The position numbers and the translations under genes were made by a program. This document shows positions 2 to 63,445 of a stretch of DNA of 64,000 nt, piece after piece. How positions within the stretch are numbered: position 1 is the stretch's first letter; every line of letters begins with the position of its first letter. The notes under the pieces were generated by a model. That model was not told the origin of the DNA and searched no databases. It was given only the letters and a program-made list of their open reading frames with translations. Source of the stretch: Methanofollis sp. W23. Its GTDB lineage: Archaea; Halobacteriota; Methanomicrobia; Methanomicrobiales; Methanofollaceae. The stretch spans positions 1,178,001-1,242,000 of the forward strand of contig NZ_JAGGMN010000001.1 of NCBI RefSeq assembly GCF_017875325.1, in the 5' to 3' direction.

Positions 2-784
2 CCGGCGGCGACGGCGTCGCTGCTCCTCAATTTCGAGGCGGTGGCCACGACGATCATCGCGGTGCTCTGGTATCGTGAGCCGGTAGGGAGGCGGATGTGG
101 GCCGCGCTCTCCCTGATCACGCTCTCGTGCATTATCCTCTCGTACGTCCCTGACCAGCCTTTCGGGCTCTCGCTCGGGGCGCTCGGGGTCATCCTGACCT
201 GCACGTTCTGGGGGATGGACAACAACTTCAGCAAGAAGATCTCGGCAAAGGACCCGATCCCGATCGTGATGATCAAGGGGTTTGGGGCAGGGGCGGTCAC
301 CTTCGTCATCGCCCGTCTCCTTGGCGAGGCGATCCCGGACCCGGCCACCTGTCTGGCGGCGATGGTGATCGGGTTCCTGGGCTATGGCGGGATGATGAGC
401 GTCTTCTTCCTGATGGCGCTGCGCGGGATCGGGTCGGCGCGGACGAGCGCCCTGGTCTCGACCTCGCCGTTCTTCGGGGTCTTCGTCTCGTTCCTGCTCT
501 TCACCGAGGAACCGAGACCTGCCTTTTTCGTCTCTCTGCTGGTGATGGCCCTTGGTGCCTGGCTTCTCATCACCGAGAAGCACTCCCACCCTCACCGGCA
601 CGAGGTGATGGTCCACGAGCACCGGCACCGGCACGACGACCTCCATCATGACGGCCACCCGCATCCGCCTGGCACCCCGGCGCTCGATGCAAAGGGTTAC
701 CACTCGCATCCTCACCGGCATGAAGCAATGGTCCACGACCACTCGCACGCCCCCGACCTCCACCATCGGCACACCCATGAGTGA
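2..784 (+). CDS. DMT (EamA) family transporter with His-rich C-terminal tail, 5' end outside window
   Basis: The reading frame is open from base 2, so the N-terminus lies upstream. About 190 residues of alternating hydrophobic segments (for example ALSLITLSCIILSYV and SLLVMALGAWLLITE) match the second half of a ten-helix drug/metabolite transporter of the EamA type. These are inner-membrane exporters or importers of small metabolites. The last ~68 residues form a hydrophilic tail with 23 histidines, containing two copies of an HSHPHRHExMVHxH unit. Such tails bind divalent metals in other transporters, so a link to Ni, Co or Zn is possible but is inference; the membrane domain alone does not define the substrate. 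The fold is well supported, the substrate is not. Confidence 0.85.
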   Translation, partial: PAATASLLLNFEAVATTIIAVLWYREPVGRRMWAALSLITLSCIILSYVPDQPFGLSLGALGVILTCTFWGMDNNFSKKISAKDPIPIVMIKGFGAGAVTFVIARLLGEAIPDPATCLAAMVIGFLGYGGMMSVFFLMALRGIGSARTSALVSTSPFFGVFVSFLLFTEEPRPAFFVSLLVMALGAWLLITEKHSHPHRHEVMVHEHRHRHDDLHHDGHPHPPGTPALDAKGYHSHPHRHEAMVHDHSHAPDLHHRHTHE

Positions 785-883
785 GTGGTGGGGCGGCACG
801 ATAACTCTCTGGGGGGTGGAGGCGCCCTCGAGCTCATTCTGTACATCAGGAGTTGTGCCCGGGCAGCGTCGGGTGGTCACTCC

Positions 884-893
884 TTCCTTTTTT
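884..893 (+). terminator. poly-T terminator candidate after the DMT transporter
   Basis: A T-rich run (TCCTTTTTTCC) about 100 bp after the transporter stop resembles archaeal oligo-U termination sites. It lies just upstream of a repeat element. Confidence 0.4.
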
Positions 894-916
894 CCATGGG
901 ATTTTAGAGAGTCAAG

Positions 917-1089
917 GGCTTTGTAGAAATGCTCTGGGTGGGGCTCTCTGGCGGGGGGCGTGCGCACCCCGCACCCCCGCCACACGATAATAGGTCAAGG
1001 ACGGCGGCACTCGCCCCCGGCCAAAGGGGTAGGAAGGCGGATGACAGACACGCATTCTCCCCACGATACGTGAGGGTTTCTACAGAGCC
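917..1089 (+). mobile_element. Family A MITE-like element, 173-bp internally deleted copy
   Basis: Ends are GGCTTTGTAGAAA and TTTCTACAGAGCC, an imperfect 13-bp inverted pair. The flanks are a perfect 8-bp direct repeat, GAGTCAAG, at 909-916 and 1090-1097. The left interior (CTCTCTGGCGGGGGGCG) matches the 232-bp copies, but about 60 bp of the middle is missing. No ORF of its own. It sits 55 bp upstream of the next gene. Confidence 0.85.
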
Positions 1090-1144
1090 GAGTCAAGGAT
1101 GCAGAACCTGCCCGGCGCAAGGTTGATGGAGGTTTGCAGAGCAC

Positions 1145-2107
1145 ATGGGGAGTATGAAAATAGCCGTGGCAGGCGCAGGTGTGGCCGGGAGTTTTCTTGC
1201 CTCCCGGCTCTCTGATGCAGGATATGTGGTAGACCTCTATGACCTCCCGGCACAGACGGCGTGCCGGGCGTCTCCATGTGCCTGGATGGCGACACGGGAC
1301 TTCCCGGCCGTGCTCGAGGCCGAGGGGCTTGAGCCCGAAAAATACGTGATCGAGCACTTCGACGCCTTCTTCCTTCAGGAGCAGCGCCTGGAGGCCGACC
1401 TGATGACGATCCATAAACCGGCGCTTCTCGCCGACCTGCGGGGCGAGGTGGGGGTGCGGACAGGGAGGCCCGACCTTTCGGAATATGGCCGGGTCATCGA
1501 TGCCACCGGGACGGCACGGGCCTATCTCCCGGCGATCACGGGGGACGACTTCTGCCGGTGCGTCCAGTTCAGGGTGCAGGGCGGGGACCGGGCGCCCTCC
1601 CTCCCGTCGGTGCGGTATGTCCATGGCGGGTATGCCTGGTCGTTCCCGCTCGGCGGCGGCGAGCGGCATGTCGGGTGTCTCAGCCATCTCGCCGACCCCG
1701 CCGGGCTCATCGGGGAGACCGGGTATCTGGACGGCGAGGCGCACTGCGGGTGCAGGAGCAGGTTGCGGGTCACGTCGCCGTACCGGGCGCAGCCGTTTGT
1801 CTCTGGAAATGTTTGCGGGGTGGGCGAGGCGATCGGGTGTACTTATCCGTTGGTCGGCGACGGGATCGTTCCTGCCCTCCTTTCCGCCCGTCTTCTCCTC
1901 GACCACTTCGACGACCCTGCGGGCTACACGCAGGCGGTCCTCGACGCCTTCCCGGGGATGCAGGGGGAGCGCACTCTCCTGGAGAGGATGAAGGCCGGGC
2001 GCCGTCCGTCGCCTGCGTGGATCGATGAGGTCGATACTTCGCGCCTTGGCGTCAGGGTCACTCCGGCCGGGGTTGCCCGTATCCTCTTTGCGCTCATTGC
2101 AAGGTGA
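1145..2107 (+). CDS. NAD(P)/FAD-dependent oxidoreductase, geranylgeranyl reductase-like
   Basis: The N-terminus carries a Rossmann dinucleotide-binding motif (VAGAGVAGSFLASRLSDAG). The C-terminal third has the FAD-contact region GxGxAIGxxxPLxGDGIxPA typical of geranylgeranyl/digeranylgeranylglycerophospholipid reductases. In archaea these flavoproteins reduce isoprenoid double bonds of membrane lipids, but methanogens carry several paralogues and the substrate here cannot be read from sequence. At 320 residues it is shorter than the usual ~390-400. The start could be 1145 or the ATG at 1154, which directly precedes the conserved MKIAVAGAG; GGAGG lies at 1129-1133. It appears monocistronic. 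Confidence 0.8.
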   Translation: MGSMKIAVAGAGVAGSFLASRLSDAGYVVDLYDLPAQTACRASPCAWMATRDFPAVLEAEGLEPEKYVIEHFDAFFLQEQRLEADLMTIHKPALLADLRGEVGVRTGRPDLSEYGRVIDATGTARAYLPAITGDDFCRCVQFRVQGGDRAPSLPSVRYVHGGYAWSFPLGGGERHVGCLSHLADPAGLIGETGYLDGEAHCGCRSRLRVTSPYRAQPFVSGNVCGVGEAIGCTYPLVGDGIVPALLSARLLLDHFDDPAGYTQAVLDAFPGMQGERTLLERMKAGRRPSPAWIDEVDTSRLGVRVTPAGVARILFALIAR

Positions 2108-2221
2108 CCGGGGCCGCTCCAGTCTGTTTCTCCGGGGTGAAGAGGAGGGGCAGAGTGACGAAGCGCGATTGGTCGGCGTCCCTGCTCCCCTGTCGATGTC
2201 TGGAAGGAGAACTGAGAGACC

Positions 2222-2301
2222 GATCCTGTAAAAATCCTCTGGACGGGTATCTTTGGCGGGCGACACATATCCCCTCACAATAGGAGGGGTTCTGCAGGGC
2301 C
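2222..2301 (+). mobile_element. Family A MITE-like element, 80-bp minimal derivative
   Basis: Ends GATCCTGTAAAAA and GGTTCTGCAGGGCC are degenerate forms of the family A inverted ends. The flanks GAGAGACC (2214-2221) and AAGAGACC (2302-2309) match in 7 of 8 positions, like a target duplication. Only the outer arms of the 232-bp element remain. The rest of this spacer (2108-2472) shows no gene. Confidence 0.65.
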
Positions 2302-2472
2302 AAGAGACCTGAGATCTCCTGGAGTCGCGCCTGATTATCGTCTTCCCCCATATGCCTGGGGGCAGAATCGGTGAAGACAGAGAGGGGGGGCACCAACGCC
2401 CTCCCTCCCCTTCATGGTGCAATTTCCCTGGAAGAGGTCTGCAAAACCAGGATCTCTTCCTGGGGTATGATT

Positions 2473-2628
2473 TCAGAAGAGTTCTCGAACTTCGATCGCC
2501 TCGGCGCTGATGCCGCGCACATTGAGCATGACGGCATGGTAGAGGTTGACATTGCGCATGCATTCCCTGAACTCACCGTCGTACCATTCTTTGATGGATT
2601 CGCGGTACATCATCATCTTGGTCTGCAT
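2473..2628 (-). CDS. 51-residue conserved-looking small protein
   Basis: A short gene reading MQTKMMMYRESIKEWYDG at its start and ISAEAIEVRELF at its end. The composition is that of a folded, mainly helical cytosolic protein, with well-spread charged and aromatic residues unlike the Pro/Arg-rich shadow frames nearby. No Shine-Dalgarno site precedes the ATG. A TATA-like TATAACTC at about 2657-2663 lies ~32 bp upstream, the spacing seen at other apparently leaderless genes in this window. The in-frame codons upstream reach a stop without another start codon. I do not recognise the family and give no function. Confidence 0.6.
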   Translation of the reverse strand: MQTKMMMYRESIKEWYDGEFRECMRNVNLYHAVMLNVRGISAEAIEVRELF

Positions 2629-2901
2629 AATGGTATCTTCGCGTTTGGCCGAGGGAGTTATAGTCGTTTTGAATTGAATCTGCCGGATTATTGACTATCT
2701 TTCATGATAATTCCAGATTTGCGGCGGCGAATGGGAGCGATGGTTGAGGGGTGGGGGGCCGGGTGCGAGGCAGGGTGAGAGGAGCGCAGGCCAACAGATC
2801 AGGTGAAGGCGATTCTTCGTTTCCTGGCCCAGGAGGGGGCCTGATCTATTTCTCACGAGGGGCTCTCTCGATCGCCTCCCTGCCGCGACCGCGCCGGGGG
2901 A

Positions 2902-3565
2902 CTTTTGTGGCGAGTATGTCTCTCACCCTCCGCCGGGGGTTCTGCCCCCGGACTCCCGGCGAGGGCGAGTGGTCGTGGACCGGAGGGCGGCGGATTGGTG
3001 GGAGTGATCATAGTTCTTCGTGGTGAGTGAGTCGTTCCCCCCCCCGCCCGGGGACGAGTGCCCCCAAACCCCCGCGATGGCGATTTGTCGTGGATCAGAG
3101 AACGGTGGATCATTGAGGGCGATCTTTTTTCTTCGGGTGGTGTGTGTCTTCTTGGTCTTTGTGGCGAGTAGATCGTTTGCCCTCCGCCGGGGGACGAGTG
3201 CCCCCGGTCCCCCGGCGATAGCGATTGGTCGGAGATCGGAGGGCGGTGGATCAGTGAGGGCGATCTTTTTTTCTTCGGGAGGTGTGTGTCTTCCGGTCTT
3301 TGTGGCGGAGGACTACTGTGAGATCATACCAGATGAAGAGGGAGGTGCCGTCCTCGACCAATCGTGTGGTGGGGGGTCCGAGGGGTGCAACCGCCCGGCC
3401 CTGAGAGAGAGCAAGAGGATTTTTTTCTGGTGAGTAGATCCTTCACCTCCATCGGGGGACGAGTGCCCCGGGACTCCCGGAGAGGGCGAGTGGTCGGGGA
3501 CCGGAGGGTGGCGGACCAAGTGTGGGCGATCTTTTTTCTTCGGGTGGTGTGTGTCTCCCGGTCTT
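2902..3565. repeat. Degenerate tandem array, unit about 130-140 bp, 4-5 copies
   Basis: Blocks starting near 2902, 3015, 3155, 3294 and 3430 share the order: TTTGTGGCGAGTAG-like start, a GC hairpin (CGCCGGGGGACGAGTGCCCC and variants), GCGATTGGTCG, GGAGGGCGGTGGATCA, then GCGATCTTTTTTCTTCGGG and GGTGTGTGTCTTC. The block from 3305 to 3428 looks like a family A-like insertion into one unit. No open frame crosses the array coherently, so I treat it as noncoding. Confidence 0.75.
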
Positions 3566-12255: not shown

Positions 12256-12487
12256 GGCTCTGTAGAAACCCTCTGGATGCCTCTCTCTGGCGGGGGGCGT
12301 GCCGCCCCCCGAACCCCCTCGAATATGATCGCTCGGGGCCCTGAGCACCCTCTTCAGGAACGTCGAATATGCCTCCCTGTCCTGATCTCCGCCCAGGGGA
12401 TCAGGGGGCAACCCCCCGGGCAAGAGACTATGGGAAGGCAATCCAATCGCCCTCACACCAAGAATGAGCGAGGAGTCCCACAGGGCC
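12256..12487 (+). mobile_element. Family A MITE-like element, full 232-bp copy
   Basis: It starts GGCTCTGTAGAAA and ends GGAGTCCCACAGGGCC, a decayed right end. It includes both GC hairpins, the first being GGGGGGCGTGCCGCCCCCC. No target duplication is recognisable (flanks TAAAAATG and GACTTTTT). It lies in the divergent spacer between the hybrid kinase and the DUF1624 gene. Confidence 0.75.
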
Positions 12488-17500: not shown

Positions 17501-18137
17501 GAAGTCCACTCAGACAGATCAATGAGTTTTCGGCCCTGTAGAGACCCATAAAGATCGGTCAGGGTGGCTTCTGATCACATGGCTTCCCGCCTCGGTCACG
17601 CCAGGGGGTGCATCCCCCGACCCCCACCACACGATTTTGGTCGAGGACGCCAACCTCTTTCGTCGTGGTCGTCGATTCTGCCTTCCGTGCTCGATCTTGC
17701 TTTCGGAGGTCCGGGGGCACTCGTCCCCCGGCGCGAGCATTGAGGAAGGCAGTTGAGTCACAATTGCACCTAGAAGAGGGGAGGGTTTCTACACAGCGGG
17801 ACGATCTTTAAGTTTCGATGAATTAGTGGGGACAGCGACACTTGAAGTCCACACAGACAGATCAATGAGTTTTCGACTCTGTAGAGAACCTTACAGATCT
17901 GTCAGAGTGGCCTTCTGATCATATGCCTTCCCGCCTCGGTCGCGCCGGGGGGTGCACCCCGGACCCCTGCCCCACGATGGGTCGAGGACGGGGCAATCCC
18001 TCTTCAGGGAGTACGAATATGCCTTCCCAGCTCAATCTTCATCCTGGGGGTCCGGGGGCAGCGCCCCCGGTGAGATGATGGGGAAAGGAGGTTGAGTCAC
18101 GCGCACATCAGGAATAGGTGAGGGTTTCTCCAGAGCC
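17501..18137. repeat. Direct duplication of a family A element with a shared leader (~300 bp each)
   Basis: Two copies, 17501-17800 and 17844-18137, each begin GAAGTCCACxCAGACAGATC then AATGAGTTTTCG, enter family A at (G)G/ACxCTGTAGAGA (17532 and 17875), and end at GAGGGTTTCTACACAGC or GAGGGTTTCTCCAGAGCC. The shared leader outside family A shows a segmental duplication and not two independent insertions. The preceding part of the spacer (17118-17500) contains a GC-hairpin repeat fragment and no gene. Confidence 0.75.
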
Positions 18138-23445: not shown

Positions 23446-23682
23446 GGCATTCCCTCCAATGAACTACTATCTCAGGGCCGTCGCATAAATCACTTCTGCC
23501 GCGGGAGGACGCGATGGCGCACCCAAAAGAGAGGAGAAAAGGTGCGACCCTGGACGGGCGGGGGACGGAGATGCCGAATGGATGATCATGACGGGGGTGG
23601 TGCCGTCCTCGACCTCCCGTGTGGCGGGGGGCGTGGGGGGCGGCACGCTTCCCACCACCGAGAACCATCTGTCCAAAATTTC

Positions 23683-23914
23683 GGCGGTGTAGAAACCCTC
23701 TCCACTTTTTGGTGTGAGCGCGACTCACCTGCCTTCCTATACTTCCGCGCCAGGGGCGCGGCGCCCCCGGACCCCAGGGACGATGATAGGGCCGGGAAGG
23801 CATAATGGACGGCTATGATGAGCGTGATGCCGTCCCCGACATATCGTGCCGCAGGGGGACCGGGGAGTGCAACCCCCCGCCACCGAGAGGAACTGAGAGG
23901 ATTTTTACAGGGCC
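23683..23914 (-). mobile_element. Family A MITE-like element, 232 bp, with perfect 8-bp target duplication
   Basis: Ends GGCGGTGTAGAAA and TTTTTACAGGGCC; flanks AAAATTTC at 23675-23682 and 23915-23922 are identical. Orientation is opposite to the 36978 copy. A second, truncated family A fragment lies just before it (about 23590-23680). Confidence 0.88.
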
Positions 23915-23967
23915 AAAATTTCAGGAAGGAAGCGCTTCAGGTCAGGAGAATGTCCATACTTCAATTC

Positions 23968-27639: not shown

Positions 27640-28623
27640 TTGCGGTGATGAAGAATCGGGCACGCATATCAGATGAAATTCCAGGCGTGTAGAATCTCTC
27701 ATCTCTTCGAAGTGCACGTGTGACTCAATCGCGTTCCTTCATGCCCGCGCGGGGGCGAGTGCCGCCCCGACCCACAGGATCAAGATGGGGCTGAGAAGGC
27801 ACGATGGACGAACATAAAGGAGGGCTGCATTCCTCGCCTCATCGCTCATGTGATGGGTGGGGGGTCGTGAGGCGACCACTCTCAAGCGAAGGGAATCATC
27901 GAGATAATTTTCCATGAAAATGATCCTGAAGATATTCTCTCCAGTTTTGCATGATGGTTTCAGTTCTCTAGAATATTTTCGAAATGATATGAAGAGGAGA
28001 GAAGGGCTCTGTAGAAACCCTCGCCTATTCCTGGGGTGAGCGTGACTCCCCCGCCTTCCCCATCATCTCACCAGGGGCGCGGCCGCCCGGACCCCGAGAC
28101 CACGACGTGAACGAGAAGGCAGAATAGAGGACTATGACGAGAGGGTGCCGCCCTCCTCCTATCGTCATCCAGGGGGTCCGGGGGCAGCGCCCCCGGCACG
28201 AGCGTGCGGGAAGGCCATAGGTACTTCTGGGCTACGAGGGGGTGAGGATCTTTCAACCATCATCCATCGCTATCTTCTGTAAAGGTAAGGTTGGAGAGTT
28301 TTGAGATGACTTCTCTGAATTCCCTCCCCTATCCTCATCCCGGGGGTCCGAGGGCAGAGCCCCAGGCGCGATTCATGGGGGAAGGCGGGCGAATCACACC
28401 TCCGATCCTTCGCGAGGAGGAGAGGTGATGGCACCCATTTGATGATGTTGCCGCGTGGTGTCCTGCTCTGAAGGGGGAGCAGGGGTCCAGACACCCGCTT
28501 GCGCGGGCGCGGATCTCAGGCATAGAAGCATCCATGGATCTGTAGAGCCCGGCATGATCTCTGGGTTCACGCATACGCGATGCAAATGATCGTGGGTCTC
28601 TCGACATGTGGAACCCGGCACCC
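27640..28623. repeat. Cluster of truncated family A, B and C repeats
   Basis: A fragment from 27684 (GTGTAGAATCTCTC... GTGTGACTCAATCGCG) ends near 27840. At 27910-27950 the inverse of the family B end (CCATGAAAATGATCCTGAAG) appears. A family A copy starts at 28005 (GGCTCTGTAGAAACCCTCGCC) but has no matching right end; C-type sequence follows to 28320. 28430-28540 is a B fragment on the minus strand and 28548-28623 one on the plus strand. I see no gene from 27432 to 28634. Confidence 0.65.
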
Positions 28624-53059: not shown

Positions 53060-53290
53060 GGCCCTGTAGAAACCCTTACCTTTTCTAGGTGCAGGTGTGA
53101 TTCAACCGCCTTCCCCTATCTTCTCGCCGGGGGCTCTGCCCCCGGACCCCCGGGACGAGGATAGTGCAGGGAAGGCAAAATTAGTCGCCATAAAGAGCGT
53201 AATGCTGTCTACTGCCTATCTTCACGCGGGGGGACCGGAGGCGGCGAGCCCCCCGCCAAAGATAACTGTCCAGAGGATTTTTACAGAGCC
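53060..53290 (-). mobile_element. Family A MITE-like element, 231 bp, with perfect 8-bp target duplication
   Basis: Ends GGCCCTGTAGAAA and TTTTTACAGAGCC. Identical flanks GAAAACTG at 53052-53059 and 53291-53298. Both GC hairpins are intact (GGGGGCTCTGCCCCC near 53130). Confidence 0.9.
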
Positions 53291-63214: not shown

Positions 63215-63445
63215 GGGTTTGTAGAAGTCCTCTTGTTCGTTCTCTTCGCCGGGGGGCAGAACCCCCCGGTCCCCCCGCGTGAAGATAGGTGGCGGACACC
63301 AATGTCCTCCTTATAGTCGTTGATGATGCCTTCCTGGCCCTATCTTCATCCTGGGGGTGCGGCGGCACGCGCCCCCGGCGGGAGCATGTGAGAAGGTGTT
63401 AGAATCACGCTCGCATCCCTGATAGGCGGGGGTTTCGACAGAGCG
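63215..63445 (+). mobile_element. Family A MITE-like element, 231 bp, decayed ends
   Basis: Left GGGTTTGTAGAAG and right GGGTTTCGACAGAGCG are mutated forms of the inverted ends; both GC hairpins remain. Flanks no longer match. A family C end (GAGGGTTTTGAGATATGCTC) follows at ~63466-63485, and a truncated A left arm lies at 62990-63045. No gene in 62926-63650. Confidence 0.7.

Follow-up and report, generated by a model that had tools for sequence, protein, structure and literature searches.

Several MITEs linked to IS5-family elements (for example ISMac15, ISMma12, ISMba19 and IsMbu10) have been described in methanogens, with lengths of 140–252 bp and inverted repeats of 15–17 bp (Kamoun et al. 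2013, PMC3852290). Short repeats of very high copy number are known in bacteria (PMC10969869), and 8-bp target duplications have been recorded for many members of the IS6 family (PMC6807381). Here we describe a family of short repeats in Methanofollis sp. W23 (G000; 2,907,262 bases in two contigs), examined in a window, the whole 64-kb stretch of DNA analysed (C1:1178001–1242000), and in further stretches of the same genome. We consider it highly probable that the repeats represent a non-autonomous DNA transposon (MITE) of a Methanofollis species, moved in trans by an IS5-family transposase.

Family members in the window and their 8-bp flanks

On re-checking the window, we found units with the described ends and flanks at every coordinate given in a preliminary description of this DNA. 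The perfect 8-bp flanks claimed at 917, 23683, 53060 and 57342 match at 8/8 positions each, and the 7/8 matches claimed at 2222 and 36978 hold as well. Members of the family in the window are listed here, with scores in bits against the family profile:

917..1089, minus strand: shortened MITE copy, 173 bp; target duplication GAGTCAAG, 8/8
2222..2301, minus strand: strongly shortened MITE relic, 80 bp; flanks GAGAGACC/AAGAGACC, 7/8
12256..12487, minus strand: MITE copy, 232 bp; right end decayed, no target duplication; 142 bits
17532..17798, minus strand: diverged MITE copy; 119 bits
17875..18137, minus strand: diverged MITE copy; 135 bits
23675..23682, unstranded: left target duplication AAAATTTC of the 23683 copy
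23683..23914, plus strand: MITE copy under study, 232 bp; target duplication AAAATTTC, 8/8; 183 bits
23915..23922, unstranded: right target duplication AAAATTTC of the 23683 copy
28005..28194, plus strand: MITE copy, left end perfect, right end replaced; 121 bits
36978..37209, minus strand: MITE copy, both 13-bp ends perfect; target duplication CATTAAAC/CATCAAAC, 7/8; 193 bits
43228..43402, minus strand: truncated MITE copy; 73 bits
46752..46956, plus strand: MITE copy with left end, without right end; 151 bits
53060..53290, plus strand: MITE copy, 231 bp; target duplication GAAAACTG, 8/8; end-to-end fold; 211 bits
55874..56089, minus strand: MITE copy, end replaced by ...TTTCATGGTAA; 140 bits
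56112..56302, plus strand: MITE copy, right end present (1 mismatch); 134 bits
57342..57571, minus strand: MITE copy, 230 bp; target duplication GCGTGACG, 8/8; 203 bits
63215..63445, minus strand: MITE copy, 231 bp, diverged ends, no target duplication; 173 bits

The copy under study carries the ends GGCGGTGTAGAAA/GGCCCTGTAAAAA, each with two mismatches. Several copies differ from the 13-mer at one to three positions, and the copy at 2222 at three or more in each end. Two diverged family members, 12256–12487 and 63215–63445, have flanks matching at only 2/8 and 3/8 positions, respectively. The neighbouring diverged copies at 17532 and 17875 are both preceded by the same 20-mer, agacagatcaatgagttttc, which suggests a local duplication.

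An alignment of 36 copies of 215–250 bp gave a 231-bp consensus with complementary 13-bp ends, that is, a short unit with the terminal inverted repeats of a MITE and too short for a transposase gene. At up to three mismatches the 13-mer occurs 45 times in the window, compared with 11.0 (sd 3.4) in shuffles; genome-wide, at up to one mismatch, it is found 237 times on the forward and 246 times on the reverse strand, and its reversed control 0 and 2 times. A literature search with the end sequence returned no mobile-element paper.

We then compared the flanks with chance, a check called for in the preliminary description, using end pairs separated by no more than 700 bp in 464 kb (the window plus 400 kb, partly picked for density; n=76). 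Exact 8-bp repeats flank 18 of the 76 pairs (permutation mean 0.4, maximum 4), and 34 match at 7/8 or better (mean 1.2, maximum 6). None of the 76 pairs has exact flank repeats of 9–12 bp, so the target duplication has the constant length expected of a prokaryotic MITE, with a sharp peak at exactly 8 bp. For an evenly spaced 400 kb, 10/39 pairs match at 7/8 or better (permutation mean 0.8, maximum 5). Target sites are AT-rich, and their first position is often G.

Other repeats lie among these copies. Often ...GGATCATTTTCATGGTAA stands in place of the 13-bp end, joined straight to the MITE interior (33298, 43020 and 55865 in the window; 17 sites in the 464 kb); it resembles either a chimera that keeps recurring or a separate, second family of repeats. 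Yet another family has GGCTCTGTAGAAT ends, behind which lie sequences similar to CRGGCATGAACCC (55579 and 37416 in the window; L032 13312–13936); it forms mosaics with the 231-bp family and shows some 8-bp duplications. Elsewhere, MITEs surround an AT-rich gene whose 375-aa product contains two GNAT acetyltransferase domains (L051 12756–14753; G000:C1:652756–654753). We rejected this arrangement as a composite transposon with target duplication TATTTTGT (8/8): for 178 long pairs 0.27 perfect matches are expected and at least one arises in 24% of permutations, so the match is not evidence of joint movement.

Empty sites, load and age

Empty sites in sister genomes, proposed earlier as a check, were found. 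The two flanks of each insertion were joined with one target copy and aligned to the genome of Methanofollis sp. STE_20 (G001; assembly 81% complete), where the precise empty sites of four insertions were located, every one of them holding a single target copy and aligning without a break over the junction:

G000:C1:888485–888714: target ATTCTTTC; 89–90% identity, ungapped over the junction
G000:C1:1419298–1419531: target GGGAATAG; 93% identity
G000:C1:909090–909321: target GAGAAGAC; 82% identity
G000:C1:847675–847907: target GGGATTTC/GGAATTTC; 81% identity

At the GGGAATAG, GAGAAGAC and GGGATTTC sites the single target in G001 has one or two mismatches to the 8-mer. Some insertions, including 36978 in the window, sit in other repeats whose paralogues are uninterrupted, which adds further empty sites to the four in G001. 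The locus of the 917–1089 copy was set aside as imprecise: relatives lack the element, but neighbouring intergenic sequence has also been lost or replaced, as in Methanofollis G004.

The family is very abundant. With a profile built from 29 of the 36 aligned copies, all from this genome, we found 139 copies or fragments in the evenly spaced 400 kb (~35 per 100 kb, 5.4% of the sequence), 25 of them near full length, and zero matches in the reversed control. Extrapolation from these sampled stretches gives ~1,000 copies or fragments genome-wide, ~180 near full length. The window is denser than the sample, at 9.7% of its sequence. In 100-kb samples of sister species the load was 0 (G002), 0.2% (G003), 1.5% (G005) and 1.7% (G004), values possibly understated by a profile trained on this genome. 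Copies are 69% identical on average and the closest pairs mostly 75–94%, so that, judged from these identities, most of the amplification is probably not recent.

The transposase and alternative explanations

A transposase fragment adjoining the same ends in a Woesearchaeote led us to IS5-family elements in methanogens. The preliminary description had asked for an IS with matching ends, and such elements, 954–1011 bp long and mostly with 8-bp duplications, are present in other Methanofollis and Methanomicrobiales; the MITE thus has ends in common with autonomous elements. The clearest, in Methanofollis G005 (L099 1444–2451), is 1008 bp long, with an intact 305-aa transposase, ends GGCTCTGTAGAAT and GGCCCTGTAGAAA, and target duplication GAACAATC. 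Methanofollis G009 holds a decayed 954-bp copy (L103 829–1782; CGAAAATC). Further elements of 979–1011 bp occur in the Methanomicrobiales G020 (L100; AAAATTTC) and G032 (L101; GAAATTAT) and in G038, the last with a 9-bp duplication. Three intact copies of 1007 bp lie in G003, with differing 8-bp duplications and ends three mismatches off.

The partner's transposase belongs to the DDE proteins of the IS5 family, scoring 237 bits against NCBIfam NF033579 (transpos_IS5_2, IS5 family; cut-off 140) and 77 bits against PF01609 (DDE_Tnp_1). Read from the ends of seven IS copies against the MITE consensus, and on each side separately, the agreement extends over ~17 bp (left AAACCCT, right WTCCT). Past these ~17 bp the interiors have nothing obvious in common, as judged from that reading of the ends, so the comparison does not establish that the MITE arose from a known IS simply by losing its interior.

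In its own genome the family has no intact partner. What is left is a relic of about 32 residues, the last codons of the transposase, with the right end GGCTCTGTAGAATTCCTC (~C1:1034512–1034620). With nothing more than this fragment surviving in the genome, the MITE family is probably orphaned there. Across the sister species MITE load and transposase presence do not correspond: the heaviest genomes, G000 and G001, hold relics only, and G003, with its three intact transposase copies, has few MITEs. A search of viral contigs with the DPANN transposase fragment found no relatives.

The lack of an intact IS5 source, together with the fact that the families searched are a subset of all transposase families, would fit units moved by another family still active here, such as IS1595 (which also makes 8-bp duplications) or a diverged DDE family. 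We consider this quite improbable. The own genome gives no match to PF12762 (IS1595), and its IS5 relic bears the matching end. Its sole PF01609 match above cut-off (L052, element 374–3161, near C1:20983–21840, with GGCTCTGTTGAAT-type ends) was rejected as a source: the DDE_Tnp_1 gene, which from its sequence we take to be IS1634-like, is broken by stops and nested in fragments that we likewise read as IS110-like, and the flanks are unmatched.

The preliminary description had noted a likeness to IS6/IS26-type elements; on such an origin the ends would belong to an IS6-family element, whose transposase would move the units and make the duplications. The GG...CTGT...AAA ends and the 8-bp length do recall that family, but we judge this origin highly improbable, and the proposed kinship did not stand: PF13610, the IS6-type transposase, has no match in the own genome though the same search finds matches in control archaea, and the elements that do carry these ends encode IS5-family transposases.

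The 8-bp peak, the four empty sites and the autonomous relatives with the same ends do support the broader proposal of that description, a non-autonomous family that depends on a transposase from elsewhere. Under mobilisation by an IS5-family element, a ~1-kb element would supply a DDE transposase in trans; this protein would recognise the ends GGCTCTGTAGAAA[C/T]CCT and mobilise the unit, which would enter an AT-rich target opened by staggered cuts, giving the 8-bp duplication. Because no intact source remains, activity in this genome has presumably ended. What the sequences show is the shared ends, the 8-bp duplications, the empty sites, the autonomous elements in sister species and the relic in the own genome; the action in trans, the chemistry and the end of activity are inferred.

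The 231-bp consensus is mostly self-complementary, and five window copies fold far better than shuffles (z −3.2 to −5.6; 53060..53290 reaches −5.0 as RNA and −3.1 as DNA), with the 13-base complementary ends adding to every fold score. Structured intergenic elements of use to the host (RNA genes or regulatory hairpins) lying near chance direct repeats would show such foldedness, a reading to which we give almost no credence: insertion is shown both by the exact 8-bp duplications and by the precise empty sites, the permutation test argues strongly against the chance duplications it needs, there is no Rfam match, and as to conserved RNA structure the covariation term is about zero, with compensatory change in 3/26 consensus pairs. 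Single MITE copies may have been co-opted later, which is compatible with an origin by insertion.

The same ends enclose unrelated interiors of strong self-complementarity in Methanoregula, Woesearchaeota, Nanoarchaeota and a Micrarchaeote, and these elements too fold better than shuffles (z −4.7 to −12.6). The Woesearchaeota and Nanoarchaeota elements (L004, L005, L010, L017, L026, L027, L031; G061–G071) have identical 13-bp ends and mostly 9-bp duplications, compared with 8 bp in Methanofollis, and contigs of these archaea frequently break at the 13-bp ends. One could suppose that self-complementarity is selected, archaeal IS5 transposases favouring compact fold-back units with a preferred size near 230 bp, such that unrelated sequences in all five groups, Methanofollis included, independently became MITEs of the same ends and similar size and foldedness. 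We find this doubtful. The similar size is partly an effect of the collection search, which asked for 216–246 bp, and shorter elements with the same ends (131–163 bp) are also present in those archaeal genomes.

Comparison with known systems

What sets this family apart is its copy number, its precise empty sites and the apparent loss of its source. A single non-autonomous family takes up about 5% of the 2.9 Mb of this archaeon, far above the archaeal MITE copy numbers in the literature cited here, and of the complete genomes the one with the greatest load has apparently lost the source. The family offers a clear case of MITE amplification in an archaeon: the transposase family can be named, empty sites in a sister genome give the insertions their polarity, and sister species have the source element. 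The same ends around unrelated interiors in DPANN make the substrate needs of an archaeal IS5 transposase directly testable.

Among bacterial repeats, likened here by description, the Chunjie MITE of Geobacter uraniireducens (PMC10969869) is 235 bp at full length and likewise has conserved inverted ends, direct repeats and many partial copies, but it is bacterial, with 38 copies with conserved ends (178–235 bp) and 57 partial ones. ERIC, with 711 copies in Photorhabdus luminescens (PMC10969869), is also a short intergenic repeat of very high copy number; it is enterobacterial and again likened by description. IS6/IS26 elements (PMC6807381) are alike in their GG-starting ends with CTGT and their 8-bp duplications, but that transposase family is absent here and the partner is IS5. 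The G005 IS5 element shares ends of ~17 bp and the 8-bp duplication with the MITE and differs in its 305-aa transposase, with no interior similarity seen. The IS5-linked methanogen MITEs (PMC3852290) are, like this family, archaeal and similar to their autonomous IS at the ends only; likened by description, they have 5–24 copies, and for most of them no duplication is recorded (0 or 3 bp), whereas here the duplication is clearly 8 bp and ~1,000 copies or fragments are extrapolated. The kind is thus already known, namely archaeal MITEs that are tied to IS5 and resemble the parent element at the ends alone; the family itself is new and very abundant.
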